Of a stretch of 54,398 bases of DNA, positions 4,372 to 49,398 are shown one piece after another. The first letter of the stretch is position 1. Every line of letters begins with the position of its first letter. The notes under the pieces were generated by a model that was given only the letters and a program-made list of their open reading frames with translations, did no database searches and was not told where the DNA came from. This DNA is from a bacterium (GTDB lineage Bacteria; SAR324; XYD2-FULL-50-16): the NCBI GenBank assembly GCA_024275165.1, contig JAJRZQ010000026.1:1-54398 (forward strand). The letters run 5' to 3'. Both the position numbers and the translations under genes were made by a program.

Positions 4372-4470
4372 AGGAAACCCTGAAAAAAGCAGAGTTTCCC
4401 AGCAAGGCAGGGATGCCTTGCCAAATCAAAAAGCGGAACTTATTGATTCGCGTTGAGGTTGTGGGTTCCT
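4372..4470. repeat. shortened copy of the AGGAACCTCTGA interspersed element
   Basis: About 99 bases starting AGGAAACCCTGAAAAA and ending GTGGGTTCCT. It matches the left half of the longer copies at 29276-29489 and 49186-49398 (the latter inverted), including the hairpin built on CAAGGCAGGGATGCCTTG and the segment TTGAGGTTGTGG, but lacks their right half. It lies between the convergent ispA and LolB-like genes, and its end touches the stop codon of the latter. It looks like an internal deletion derivative that kept both ends. Confidence 0.85.
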
Positions 4471-26089: not shown

Positions 26090-27931
26090 CTATTTGCCCG
26101 CCCTGGTGGAGGGGCCTAGTTGCGCCAAAAGCGATTGGGTGGTCAAACTGGGGTTGGTGCTCGCGGCCCGGGATTGGGCCGCGAGTTTGTTTGCCGCTCT
26201 CAGCTTATCATCGTAAGTGAGCAGTTCCTGCCAGCGGCGCAGCAAATCGGTAAGTTCTTTATTTTTGCGGAGCGCCTTATATAAGGTCGTAAGATATAAA
26301 AAAACCTGTTTATCCACCTTCATGCGAAAGGCGTTTTCAAATTGCTCGATGGCTTGGTAGAAGTTTCTTCGTTTAAAATACATCACCCCCTGACGGAGGT
26401 ATGCTTGGCGTTGTCGTTCCCTAGCCGCTTCCTTTTCCGCTCTTTTTAAATCTTCCAGCTCCAACTGCAAGGCAATGGCTTGGCTTTCTTGTTTTAAGAC
26501 GCGGTAAGCCCGGAGCAGGTTTTGCAAGGCTTCCTTATCGCGTTTCACCTCCAGGGCTTTTTGATACCAGCCCGCGGCGCTTTTGTATTTGCGCTCTCCA
26601 AAGGCTTGGCTGCCCTTGTCGCTATATTGTTGTTGGATCTCGGTGAGTTTTTTTTGGGCCAGCTCTCGATGACTGGCAAAATCCAAGAGCTTTTTTAAGG
26701 TTTCAACAGCTTTGGGGAGGCGGTTTTTTTCCAGATGAATCTGGGCAATCCGCCAATGGGCTTCGGGGTTGCTTTCTTCTGCCACTACGATTTCAAACAG
26801 GGGCAAGGCGGCTTCGGGCCGCCCGGTTTCAAAATAATCAACCGCTTTTTGGTAAATCTCTTGCCGGTCGAAAATCCCCTCGGACTTCATTAAGAGGAAG
26901 GCGGTTAAGATGGCGTACTTGAGGTAGGTGAGGTCGCTGCCTTGATCTTTATAGACGAGCGCCAGGTTGGCATTGTAGTATCGGTTGTAGGGGTCTTTGC
27001 CCAAGAGTTCGACTAAGATTTTCGCCGCCCGGCTCACCTCCTTTAAGCCAGAAAGAACACAGGCCTTGAGCATGGGTAAAAAGGAGTCTTGGCTTTTCCA
27101 TCGGGTTAGGGCGGCGAGGCTCTGGTTGGCCAATTCCCAGGCTTGCTGCCCGATCAGGTGGAGGGTGAGGTTGTACAGCAGGCCTTCTGCTTCTAAGGGA
27201 TTTGTTTTGTACTCGGCCTGAGCTTGTCGCAAGATGAAATCATAGAGTTCTTGGGTCGTGGGTTGGGTTGTTTCGGCTTGGGCCTCTTTGATTTTTCGGT
27301 CCACGGCGTGCAGGGCGAGTAAGTCTAACGCTTGTTCTTTGATCCGCCGCTCTAGGTTTAATTTTTCAAGCTTTTTGGCTTGAGCGGCTTCCTTTTTTTG
27401 GCTCAGGGTTTCTAAGGCTTGATTTAAGCTCAGTTTTGTTTTTTTTGCCGGAGGGAGCAGGTAATGGGTGAAATTAAAGTATTGCGCTAAGGTTTCGCGT
27501 ACCTGAGTATCATAGATTTCTGCCTTGGCGCGGCAAGCGCCGAGGTTGTAATAGGCGAGGCGGTAGTCGGGTTGAATCTTTAAGGCATGGCGGTAGAGGT
27601 TTTCTGCCTGGGCGTAATTGCCTTGCTTGCGAGCCGCGTTGCCTAAGCGGTTGGCGAGTTCCACATTTTTCAAATCATGACGGAGCAGGATCAAGCCAAT
27701 GGAAAGGAAGGATTCCTCATTGCCCTCGCCGGAATAGCGGCTCAAGAGAGGGGTGAGCTCGGCGACGGTTTTTTCCGGTTCTTCGCGGTAGAGTTGATCT
27801 AAGGTGATCAAGGCGAGTTTATACATCTTTGCCCGCAAGAGCCGCACGGCCTTGGCGACTCGATCAGCCACCTGGGCGTCGCGCTTTTCCGGACTGGGAA
27901 AAGAATCGGTGAGTTTATCTAAGAGGCTCAT
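26090..27931 (-). CDS. tetratricopeptide-repeat protein
   Basis: A 613-residue protein without a signal peptide, built of helical repeats. TPR-like units are clear around residues 100-150 (ARKQGNYAQAENLYRHALKI), 375-420 (PEAHWRIAQIHLEKNRLPKA), 445-480 (AFGERKYKSAAGWYQKALEV) and 525-570 (YFKRRNFYQAIEQFENAFRM). A coiled-coil-like charged stretch lies near residues 180-210 and again before the last repeats. TPR proteins of this kind scaffold partner proteins. Its start overlaps the stop of the REC-REC-Hpt gene by 4 bases, so it probably works with that phosphorelay. The stop is TAG. Confidence 0.85.
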   Translation of the reverse strand: MSLLDKLTDSFPSPEKRDAQVADRVAKAVRLLRAKMYKLALITLDQLYREEPEKTVAELTPLLSRYSGEGNEESFLSIGLILLRHDLKNVELANRLGNAARKQGNYAQAENLYRHALKIQPDYRLAYYNLGACRAKAEIYDTQVRETLAQYFNFTHYLLPPAKKTKLSLNQALETLSQKKEAAQAKKLEKLNLERRIKEQALDLLALHAVDRKIKEAQAETTQPTTQELYDFILRQAQAEYKTNPLEAEGLLYNLTLHLIGQQAWELANQSLAALTRWKSQDSFLPMLKACVLSGLKEVSRAAKILVELLGKDPYNRYYNANLALVYKDQGSDLTYLKYAILTAFLLMKSEGIFDRQEIYQKAVDYFETGRPEAALPLFEIVVAEESNPEAHWRIAQIHLEKNRLPKAVETLKKLLDFASHRELAQKKLTEIQQQYSDKGSQAFGERKYKSAAGWYQKALEVKRDKEALQNLLRAYRVLKQESQAIALQLELEDLKRAEKEAARERQRQAYLRQGVMYFKRRNFYQAIEQFENAFRMKVDKQVFLYLTTLYKALRKNKELTDLLRRWQELLTYDDKLRAANKLAAQSRAASTNPSLTTQSLLAQLGPSTRAGK

Positions 27932-29163
27932 GGGCTGATTCGTTGTCCCTGATCGGCATGAACGCGTTTGATGTGCTGTACCAGGGCTTGTGCTTGCTCT
28001 TCTAAGTTCGCGACCTGTTCTTTCGCTTTTTGGAAGTCATCCATCCGCGCTAAGCGCTCGATTTCTTCTAAGTCCATGATCATGCTCAAGAGGGGTTCGA
28101 TTTCTTGTTCCACCACGGTCATGGCAACGGCCCAAAAGCTGGAGCAACTACCGCGCAGATGGTTGGCCGTCTGCTTGAGCCCTTCGGCGTCTTTTTGGTT
28201 GAGTGCCCTTTGGATGTGTTTTAGGTTGTTGGGCAGTTTTTGCAAAAAGGTCTGTACCAATTGCCAGAGGCTGGGCCGCAGCTCTTGGTTGAGGTGATCT
28301 AAAAGGCTTTCGCCCATGGAGGGGGGCTCTTGACTCGGGTCTGGGGGTTTTCCCCGCGGGAGCCATTGCCGGAGTAGGCTTTGCAAGTCCGAGCCGTGCA
28401 GGGGCTTGGTGAGGTAATCGTCCATCCCGGCCGCTAGGCAGGCCTCCCGGTGGCGCTCCGCCTCGTTGCCCGTCAGCGCGACAATCGGAACGGGGTCGCG
28501 GCCCTGGCTCTGTTCCCATTGGCGGATGCGGCGGCAGGTTTCAAGTCCATCGGGGCCAGGGAGCTCAAGATCCATTAAGATTAAGCCGTAATCCTTGTCC
28601 TGCAGCATGTGCAAGGCCTGCGCGCCCTCTTCGGCCACCTCGGCGGTGATCCCCATTTGATTGAATAAAAGGAGGGTCAATTGTTGGTTGACCTCGTCGT
28701 CTTCCACCAATAAAACCTGCTTGGGCGCCCCCGTACAGAGAGGAGCGCAGGAAGCGGCCTGCTCCATCAACGCCCGTTTTTGGCTGAGGAATTTAAGCCA
28801 AAAGCGCAAGCGGGCGAGAAGGTAGTCCGTGGGCAGGGGGGAAGGCAGCAAGTCGAGGTTGTCCGGCCCGAGCGCCTCGAGCAGAGCCTGGTGATGAACC
28901 GCGGGCAGGGTGATCAAGAGGGGGATTTCTTGATTGTAGTATTCTTCTTTTAAATATCGCAATCCGTCGATTAAATCAGGGGGAAGGGTTTGAAAATCAA
29001 ACAGGGCCAGGTCGAGTTTCAACTTGCCCACCTGTTGGAACAGGCCTGCTTGGTACAGCGAACTCACCCCTTCTAATCCTAAGGAGGCGACTTGTTTATC
29101 GAGTTCCTCAACCTGTAAGAGGTTATCGGTGAGGAGGAGAATTTTGAATTTCTCGTTCATCAT
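27928..29163 (-). CDS. REC-REC-Hpt phosphorelay protein
   Basis: A 411-residue protein with three signalling modules. Residues 5-125 are receiver-like but degenerate: one of the acidic pair and the conserved Lys are missing. Residues 147-268 are a complete receiver with VLLVEDDEVNQ, the phosphoacceptor Asp198 in LMDLELPGPDG and Lys253 in LTKPL. Residues 295-400 form an Hpt domain with His335 in ANHLRGSCSSF. There is no DNA-binding or enzymatic output. It overlaps the TPR gene by 4 bases; the hybrid kinase gene lies upstream beyond a repeat element. It probably relays phosphate from that kinase to a regulator not present in the cluster. Confidence 0.88.
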   Translation of the reverse strand: MMNEKFKILLLTDNLLQVEELDKQVASLGLEGVSSLYQAGLFQQVGKLKLDLALFDFQTLPPDLIDGLRYLKEEYYNQEIPLLITLPAVHHQALLEALGPDNLDLLPSPLPTDYLLARLRFWLKFLSQKRALMEQAASCAPLCTGAPKQVLLVEDDEVNQQLTLLLFNQMGITAEVAEEGAQALHMLQDKDYGLILMDLELPGPDGLETCRRIRQWEQSQGRDPVPIVALTGNEAERHREACLAAGMDDYLTKPLHGSDLQSLLRQWLPRGKPPDPSQEPPSMGESLLDHLNQELRPSLWQLVQTFLQKLPNNLKHIQRALNQKDAEGLKQTANHLRGSCSSFWAVAMTVVEQEIEPLLSMIMDLEEIERLARMDDFQKAKEQVANLEEQAQALVQHIKRVHADQGQRISP

Positions 29164-29275
29164 AGAGCCTGTGGTCTCGTTTTTCGCCCTCTAGGGGGTG
29201 GGGGGATGGATTCGGGAAAAGTCCTATGATCTCAATAGCAAAAAAAGTGAGAAGTGCAAAGGTAAAGTTATGCCA

Positions 29276-29489
29276 AGGAACCTCTGAAAAACGCGGAGTT
29301 TCCCGGCAAGGCAGGGGTGCCTTGCCCAATTAAAAAGCGGAATTTATTGATTTACATTGAGGTTGTGGATTTCATTCCCCACCAAAACGACGGAAAAAAT
29401 CGACGCGCCCCAAGGGCTATAATTAGCCCGAAGGGCACGAACCTACCGCTTGAGCAAGCGGTAGGCAAGGAGTTTTTCAGAGGGTCCCT
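29276..29489. repeat. 214-bp interspersed element with terminal inverted repeats
   Basis: The left end is AGGAACCTCTGAAAAA and the right end is its imperfect inverse (TTTTTCAGAGGGTCCCT). Inside are hairpins GGCAAGGCA/TGCCTTGCC, GGGCTA/TAGCCC and TACCGCTTG/CAAGCGGTA. The same sequence occurs inverted at 49186-49398 and in shortened form at 4372-4470. It has no open frame of its own. It fills the gap between the hybrid kinase and REC-REC-Hpt genes and ends 3 bases from the kinase stop codon. Confidence 0.95.
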
Positions 29490-29492
29490 AAA

Positions 29493-31664
29493 TTATCGAG
29501 CCCTGGCCGCTTCAAGACCCTTTAAAAATTCTTCCGCTGCTGGTTTCAACTCCAAGAACAACTCGGCCAAGTCTTGCGCCTTCTCTTCTTTTGCCCTTGT
29601 TTCCAGTTCACGAAACCCTTGGGCCAACGCCTCTTGCCCCAAGCCCGCAAAATTACTTTTTAAGTCATGCGCCACTTTGCTCAACCGAGTCGCGTCGTTG
29701 GTTTTTATGGCTTCTAGCGCTGTCTGGAGCTTTTGCGGAATGGAGCGGCGCAGGGTCGCAACGAGTTGAGGGGGGAGGCCCTGGTAAGGCGCGGTTTGAA
29801 GGGGAGGGGAATAGCCGGGGAGCAAGCGGGCGAAGGTTTTTTGAATTTGCTCGAGGTCAATGGGTTTGGCGAGGTAATCATCCATCCCCGCGGCGAGGCA
29901 GTTTTTTCGATCTTCCGCTAGGGCATGGGCGGTTAAGGCGATGATGGGAACCCCGAGGTTCGGCCCCCGCTTGAAGGCGCGAAAGCGACGGGTCGCCTCG
30001 ATTCCATCCATGACGGGCATTTGGATGTCCATGAAGATGAGATCATATTTTTTTTCTTCTAAGGCCTTTAGGGCTTCGACCCCCGTGGTGGCCAAATCCA
30101 CCCGGAAGCCCTGCTTGCCCAAGAGATCCAGGGCAATCAATTGGTTGACGGGGTCGTCTTCCACTAAAAGCAGGGAAAAGTCTTTTGGCGGCAAAGAGAT
30201 TGCCGGGGGCATAGGGCTAGGCTGGGGCAAGGGCAAAGGGGCCGCTTGGAGGGGGAGGGTAACGCTGAATCGGCTCCCCTGGCCGGGAGTGGAATGAAAA
30301 CTCAATTCTCCTTGCAAGAGTTCCACCAGCTTTTTACTGATCATGAGCCCCAAACCAGTACCGCCAAAGCGGCGGGAATAGGAGGGGTCGCCTTGGCTAA
30401 AGGGCTGAAAGAGCCGTGATTTTTGCTCGTCGCTGATCCCCACTCCGGAGTCGGCGACTTCAAAACAGATACCTTTGGGGGTGGGCCGTACCTGAAGGCG
30501 CACATAGCCCTGAGAGGTAAACTTTACGGCGTTGCTCACTAGATTGAGGAGGATTTGGTTTAATTTGGCGGGATCGCCGATTACCCCTGGGGGGAGGTCG
30601 GGATGCAGGAGCAACTCCCATTGTAACCCCTTTTCCAAAATACTTTTTTCCTGCATCCCCGCGATTTCTTGGAGTAGGGGTTGGAGCGCGAAGACCTCGG
30701 ACTCGGCGCGCATTTCTCCGGCCGCGATTTTTGAATAATCCAAGACCTCGTTGACCAAGCGCAACAAATGGAGACTGCTTTTTTCTAAAATTTCTAAATA
30801 GCGTAGCTGCTTTGGGTTTTCGCTCAACCCCTTGATGAGTTTGGCCAGGCCTAAAATCCCATGGATGGGGGTGCGAATCTCGTGACTCATATTGGCCAAA
30901 AAGGCGCTTTTCGCGTGGTCTGCCTGTTCGGCAATTTCTTTAGCGCGGATCAAGGCTTCTTCGGTTTGCTTTTGTTTTGTAATATCTTGGATAATGCCAA
31001 CGGCTTGAATCGCATCCCCTTGAGAATTTTGGAGGACCTCTCCTTGCAACAAGAGCCGGCGAGGGCCGGAGGGGAGGTTTAATTCAAGATCCTGCCGAAA
31101 GGGCTCTTTCTTAACCAGGATTTGCTCTAAAACAGATTGAGTTTGGGGGCGATGTTGGGGGGCGACAAGTTGAAACAGGTCGGGCAGATTGCGCAATTTA
31201 CGCAAGAGTTGCTGCCCAAAGAGGCTTTCTCCTTCTTGGGAAAGCTCAAAACGCCCTTTTTTTAAGTCCCAACTCCAATTGACGAGGCCTGCGAGTTTTT
31301 GCGCCGCGACCAAGCGCTCTTTGAGGGGCTCTAGGGAATGGGGCAGAAAAAGCGCCTTGCCTTGATAAGGGGTCAGACTGCATTCTAAAATCAGAGTTTG
31401 GTTGTTGGGGTGGAGTAGAGGTAGCTTTATGCTGTTTGGTTTTCCGGAGCAACAAAGGGCGAGTGCCTTTTCTAAGGCAAGGTGATGGGTAGGGGATACC
31501 AGTTTTTTGACTCCCCCTTGGCTCAATTCCTCTAGGCTATGGGCAAAGCGCTTTGCCATGGCCGGGTTGGCGTACAGCGCCCGGCCCTGTTCATCCAAGA
31601 GGGCCAAAGCTTGGGGGCTCGCTTGCAGCAGATCGGCGAGGAATTGTGGATCGGGCAGGCTCAC
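29493..31664 (-). CDS. hybrid sensor histidine kinase (PAS-HisKA-HATPase-REC-Hpt)
   Basis: A 723-residue cytoplasmic kinase. Two PAS-like regions cover about residues 5-110 and 120-232. HisKA follows with His261 in FLANMSHEIRTPIHG, then HATPase with LNQILLNLVSNAVKF, ADSGVGI and GGTGLGL. A receiver covers 497-615 with Asp546 in FMDIQMPVMDG and Lys600, and an Hpt domain has His666 in AHDLKSNF. No membrane segment is seen, so it senses an internal signal or works with the DUF2914 membrane protein encoded 19 bases upstream. The final acceptor is probably the REC-REC-Hpt protein encoded downstream. All catalytic residues appear present. Confidence 0.93.
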   Translation of the reverse strand: MSLPDPQFLADLLQASPQALALLDEQGRALYANPAMAKRFAHSLEELSQGGVKKLVSPTHHLALEKALALCCSGKPNSIKLPLLHPNNQTLILECSLTPYQGKALFLPHSLEPLKERLVAAQKLAGLVNWSWDLKKGRFELSQEGESLFGQQLLRKLRNLPDLFQLVAPQHRPQTQSVLEQILVKKEPFRQDLELNLPSGPRRLLLQGEVLQNSQGDAIQAVGIIQDITKQKQTEEALIRAKEIAEQADHAKSAFLANMSHEIRTPIHGILGLAKLIKGLSENPKQLRYLEILEKSSLHLLRLVNEVLDYSKIAAGEMRAESEVFALQPLLQEIAGMQEKSILEKGLQWELLLHPDLPPGVIGDPAKLNQILLNLVSNAVKFTSQGYVRLQVRPTPKGICFEVADSGVGISDEQKSRLFQPFSQGDPSYSRRFGGTGLGLMISKKLVELLQGELSFHSTPGQGSRFSVTLPLQAAPLPLPQPSPMPPAISLPPKDFSLLLVEDDPVNQLIALDLLGKQGFRVDLATTGVEALKALEEKKYDLIFMDIQMPVMDGIEATRRFRAFKRGPNLGVPIIALTAHALAEDRKNCLAAGMDDYLAKPIDLEQIQKTFARLLPGYSPPLQTAPYQGLPPQLVATLRRSIPQKLQTALEAIKTNDATRLSKVAHDLKSNFAGLGQEALAQGFRELETRAKEEKAQDLAELFLELKPAAEEFLKGLEAARAR

Positions 31665-49020: not shown

Positions 49021-49052
49021 AGGAAACTCTGAGTTTTTCAGAGGTTTTTTTT
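49021..49052 (+). repeat. terminator-like hairpin related to the interspersed element ends
   Basis: AGGAAACTCTGA followed by a T-rich loop and TCAGAGGTT with a run of eight T. The arms match the terminal repeats of the 214-bp element with one mismatch. It looks like two element ends brought together. Confidence 0.7.
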
Positions 49053-49185: not shown

Positions 49186-49398
49186 AGGAACCTCTGAAAA
49201 ACTCCTTGCCTACCGCTTGCTCAAGCGGTAGGTTCGTGCCCTTCGGGCTGATTACAGCCCTTGGGGCGCGTCAAGTTTTTCGGTCTTTTCGGCTGTGAAT
49301 GAAATCCACAACCTCAACGCGAATCAATAAGTTACATTTATTGATTTGGCAAGGCATCCCTGCCTTGCACGGAACCTCTTCATTTTTCAGAGGTTCCT
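49186..49398. repeat. 213-bp interspersed element with perfect 16-bp terminal inverted repeats
   Basis: Ends are AGGAACCTCTGAAAAA (49186-49201) and its exact inverse (49383-49398). It is the inverted counterpart of the copy at 29276-29489 and carries the same hairpins (TACCGCTTG/CAAGCGGTA, GGCAAGGCA/TGCCTTGC). It ends 24 bases before the typA start, so it must be in the typA leader or promoter. Confidence 0.95.

Follow-up and report, generated by a model that had tools for sequence, protein, structure and literature searches.

What is the hairpin-rich sequence that separates a kinase gene from a REC/Hpt gene near the middle of the 54,398-nucleotide stretch of DNA analyzed here (the window), and does it serve the genes beside it? 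The initial annotation placed it at 29276-29489, read it as a MITE-like mobile element or a REP/BIME-type repeat, and suggested that it may act as an mRNA processing or attenuation site. Our analysis argues that the studied sequence is almost certainly one copy of a non-autonomous MITE of the IS5 family. The family is a new IS5-derived one in a sparsely sampled bacterial lineage, and its kind is itself ordinary.

The exact limits of the studied copy are 29277-29487 on the + strand, giving a full-length unit of 211 bp; the element was thus correctly seen, with limits off by 1-2 bases. Its inverted-repeat ends are AGGAACCTCTGAAAAAC and GGAGTTTTTCAGAGGGTCCCT, with the left terminal repeat GGAACCTCTGAAAAAC at 29277-29292 (+) and the right one at 29469-29487 (-), where the - strand reads GGACCCTCTGAAAAACTCC. 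The copy is flanked by CCAA (29273-29276) and CTAA (29488-29491), candidate target-site duplications that match at three of four bases, the left one being decayed by one base from CTAA. The right duplication lies directly past the stop codon TAA (29493-29495, - strand) of the kinase gene, so that the element begins 5 bases past that codon. This gene (29493-31664, -) encodes a PAS-HisKA-HATPase-REC-Hpt kinase. On the other side, about 110 bases separate the far end of the copy from the start of the REC...Hpt gene (27928-29163, -). The flanking genes had been named as a kinase and a REC-REC-Hpt protein; Pfam detects a single REC and one Hpt in the latter. As had been proposed, no gene lies within the element: a mechanically called open reading frame (29317-29769, +) overlaps it, but is antisense to the kinase gene. 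The single strand of the studied copy folds far better than chance, at -90.6 kcal/mol versus -61.1 kcal/mol for shuffled sequences (z = -6.5). A strong fold of this 211-bp unit is expected because of its long inverted ends and internal hairpins.

The window holds further copies. The inverted copy reported 20 kb away is real; it is full-length (49187-49397, -) and aligns with the studied copy over 213 nt without gaps at 87% identity (E ~1e-67). It ends 25 bp ahead of the start codon of typA/bipA (49423), a gene that therefore has this copy as its leader or promoter region. Beyond this pair, which was all that the initial annotation listed, we found a partial copy consisting of the left end and left half (4373-4467, +), which sits between two convergent genes, and a 27-bp mini copy made of the two ends only, GGAAACTCTGAGTTTTTCAGAGGTTTT (49022-49048, +).

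A search of the host genome, a draft of 2.69 Mb (2,694,447 bases) in 47 contigs, shows that these copies belong to a large family. BLAST returned at least 40 near-full-length matches, and a covariance model placed the element at about 85 sites, about 55 of them full-length and the other 30 or so shortened or partial. The copies fall into size classes of about 211, 151, 57, 44 and 27 bp, the 151-bp class having five clean copies. They share the terminal inverted repeats GGAAACTCTGAAAAAC / GGAACCTCTGAAAAACTCC, so the inverted-repeat ends first noticed in the window are a property of the other genomic copies as well; the ends are 16-19 bp long. The end motif GGAAMCTCTGAAAAA, allowing up to one mismatch, has 157 matches in the genome versus none for the reversed control. 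This single family accounts for repeats throughout the host genome. Outside the host the picture is different. The element is absent from 51 other genomes of the phylum, none of them of the same genus, and an empty counterpart of an insertion could not be demonstrated in any near relative. In the phylum outside the host, the bare end gave nine single, chance-like matches with neither a partner end nor a duplication, and BLAST against plasmids and a scan of viral contigs gave nothing useful. At one host locus, L032 (C46:29434-31656), a MITE copy is inserted within an older partial copy; beside it lie a shortened IS5 element, whose ends are GAGACCTCTGCA, and tRNA-like sequences.

Target-site duplications provide insight into the enzyme that moved the element. 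We examined the flanks of 66 copies with good ends, using as control right flanks that were shuffled in 2000 trials. Identical 4-bp flanks occur in 36 of the 66 copies, compared with a mean of 9.3 and a maximum of 18 after shuffling, and in no copy does the match exceed 4 bp. The duplicated sites among the 36 are TTAA (15), TAAA (6), TTAG (4) and TATA (3), with TTCA, TTTA, CTTA, CTAA and TCAA among the others. The target therefore approximates TTAA/YTAR, many sites being looser than strict YTAR. IS5 elements duplicate Py-T-A-Pu, and their recorded sites include CTAG, CTAA, TTAG and CTTA (PMC5493358; also PMC10359306). The TTAA/YTAR duplications of 4 bp are an IS5 signature.

The ends of the element point to the same family. 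A pattern scan of public genomes for these ends led to Alcanivorax and to an Acidobacteriaceae MAG (JOPF197), which carry the same ends with YTAR flanks. In JOPF197 an intact transposase gene adjoins the left end GGAACCTCTGAAGAACTTCC; in its other copies, the right end GGAACCTCTGAAAAACGCCGAGTT lies at contig ends and is followed by the same transposase C-terminus (RYRGLKKNHEW...). This transposase is of the IS5 family and belongs to NF033581 (E = 7e-99; 330.7 bits, cut-off 140). Since the transposase found beside the same ends is of the NF033581 type, the ends identify the parent group. The transposase with matching ends that the initial annotation proposed to look for exists, as an IS5 enzyme in another organism; the RAYT or Y1 gene named with it was not found in the host. 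The host itself, within its draft of 47 contigs, retains only broken remnants of the NF033581 group with similar, not identical, ends (for example GGAGGCTCTGAAAAGT...GGAAGGTCTGAAAAAT), and Pfam PF01609 and PF05598, used to look for a parent IS that is still intact, detected broken copies only. The exact parent would thus be absent, lost or not assembled, and its partner enzyme is one that we infer from another phylum. One such remnant (L035, 1274-2294; C29, ~167 kb) is a decayed IS5-family element bounded by GGAGGCTCTGAAAAGT / GGAAGGTCTGAAAAAT, with a broken interior that seems to contain a GC-rich insertion; a divergent MITE copy of the 151-bp class lies just downstream. The amplification appears old, because the copies diverge from their consensus by about 7% and only broken IS5 remnants are left in the genome.

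Genomic placement was assessed for 56 full-length copies, with genes called by a simple codon-based method. All 56 are intergenic. Their neighboring genes are in tandem in 23 cases, convergent in 16 and divergent in 7, and were left unassigned in 10. Thirteen element ends fall within one base (offset -1 to +1) of the stop codon that closes a long open reading frame, and five reading frames enter the element and end at the TGA of the element end. That insertions are often found exactly at stop codons would be explained by the YTAR target, which contains TAA or TAG, with the duplication restoring the stop. The family thus offers a clear IS5-type case in which target preference places insertions at stop codons and the duplication restores the stop.

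Could the copies at gene ends instead be a functional RNA or a regulatory repeat (a terminator, an mRNA processing site or an attenuator) that is selected there? The strong fold (z = -6.5), the many copies at 3' ends and the excess of convergent over divergent neighbors are what such a reading would ask for. The substitution pattern, however, argues against it. Among 31 aligned copies, a double change was seen in one of 59 predicted pairs, and stems deviate from the consensus by 3.8% versus 4.2% for loops, with subfamily columns left out. Changes are biased toward C-to-T and G-to-A, as for neutral decay. We looked for a terminator-like site and found none, and the Rfam matches are weak, all below the gathering score. 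The position bias is itself explained by the YTAR target together with the selective loss of insertions that hit genes or promoters. Tests of covariation, stem constraint, terminators and Rfam thus did not point to an attenuator or processing site maintained by selection, contrary to the suggestion made at the outset, and we regard a functional RNA as quite improbable. Copies at single loci may nevertheless affect transcript stability; the studied copy at 29277 is most probably neutral spacer DNA, without a dedicated role in regulation.

The other half of the first proposal, a REP/BIME-type repeat that a RAYT (Y1 tyrosine transposase) would have mobilized in single-stranded form, has in its favor that the copies are palindromic, intergenic and numerous, and that the 27-bp units are of REP size. 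It is contradicted by the clear 4-bp duplications, as expected of a DDE enzyme, and by the absence of Y1_Tnp (PF01797) from the host genome in a search that was positive in 5 of 14 control genomes; nor does either end carry the GTAG tag. This origin is extremely improbable. A further rival is a MITE of some other transposase family that happens to leave 4-bp TTAA-like duplications, such as relatives of IS982 or IS1182; the transposase group does match the models of these families, more weakly. For the JOPF197 enzyme the scores are 105.3 bits for IS1182 (cut-off 270) and 50 for IS982 (cut-off 130), so the transposase beside the same end is far above the cut-off for NF033581 only; we consider another family very improbable.

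The MITE reading, in contrast, is supported. At 211 bp the element falls in the 70-300 bp range of MITEs; it is non-coding, its ends of 16-19 bp fall within the usual 15-30 bp, and its copies are dispersed and bear duplications. Derivation from IS5 is seen in the 4-bp YTAR duplication and in ends that match those of the autonomous IS5 element of the Acidobacteriaceae MAG. The MITE-like half of the initial annotation is upheld by the roughly 80 copies, by their terminal inverted repeats and 4-bp duplications, and by the IS5 transposase that has matching ends in another organism. A plausible course of events can be proposed. A putative IS5-family DDE transposase of the NF033581 type, acting in trans, would have recognized the GGAAMCTCTGAAAAAC ends and excised or copied the element. 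The element would then have been joined to TTAA-like sites opened by a cut with a 4-bp stagger, with repair of the gaps producing the duplications, and insertions would have survived between genes, often at stop codons.

Two properties of the family are less ordinary. Units of 27 bp (26 in a few cases), GGAAACTCTGAAAAANNNNGAGGTTCC, occur at about 20 scattered sites in the host genome, for example L173 (C16:4103-4137), L174 (C13:27465-27498) and L176 (C45:9586-9619); they consist of two overlapping ends with almost nothing between. Perfect 4-bp duplications flank 10 of 19 of these units (shuffled mean 2, maximum 9). Their variable positions concentrate in the 4-bp center (21/68) versus the arms (12/391; p = 2e-11), a contrast that is partly a search effect, as the set was collected by its arms. 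Conserved arms around a variable center are expected if repeated transposition keeps the arms. The units may instead have arisen by in-place deletion between two 8-bp near-identical direct repeats, GAGTTTCC at bases 20-27, close to the left end, and GAGGTTCC at the right end, a deletion that gives exactly 27 bp. If the units are mobile, they are far below the usual 70-300 bp of bacterial MITEs, and they raise the question of the minimum size of a DDE element.

The second property is mosaicism. In 56 full-length host copies with 24 sites that have common alleles, all four allele combinations occur in 220 of 276 site pairs, and haplotypes are so diverse that the eight most frequent each occur once. 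The correlation between sites (r2) is 0.19 for sites less than 10 bp apart and falls to about 0.03 once they are more than 30 bp apart (null value 0.02). The pattern resembles the outcome of repeated short exchanges among copies. Assembly error was judged an unlikely source, the copies differing every 9 bases on average, and so was recurrent mutation, several shared sites having two alleles only, transversions included (A/C 34:22). The mosaicism raises the question of how dispersed 200-bp bacterial repeats lose linkage over about 30 bp. That the 27-bp units are mobile in their own right and that, in addition, the dispersed 211-bp copies exchange short tracts is a joint proposal that we put forward tentatively and hold to be rather doubtful.

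Comparison with known systems places the family among bacterial MITEs. RUP, NEMIS/Correia, ERIC and Nezha (listed in PMC3733652) are likewise 70-300 bp long, non-coding and gene-adjacent with inverted ends of 15-30 bp, whereas their ends and parent IS families are different. REP/BIME elements resemble it as short palindromic intergenic repeats, but they have no target duplications and require RAYT, which is absent from the host genome. The NF033581 (transpos_IS5_4) group of IS5 is the closest in its ends, as GGAAMCTCTGAAAAAC is matched at 15/16 and 16/16 bases by the two ends of the Acidobacteriaceae element, and in its 4-bp YTAR duplication; unlike those elements, the window element lacks a transposase, and it has an unrelated interior. 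The MITEs of Alcanivorax (NORP25, DG881, hongdengensis; loci L054-L070, where several copies terminate contigs) have the ends GGAACCTCTGAAAAACTCC and the duplications CTAG, CTAA, TTAA and TTAG. They are longer (~260-320 bp) and differ in the interior, and appear to be a parallel family that belongs to the same lineage of transposases.
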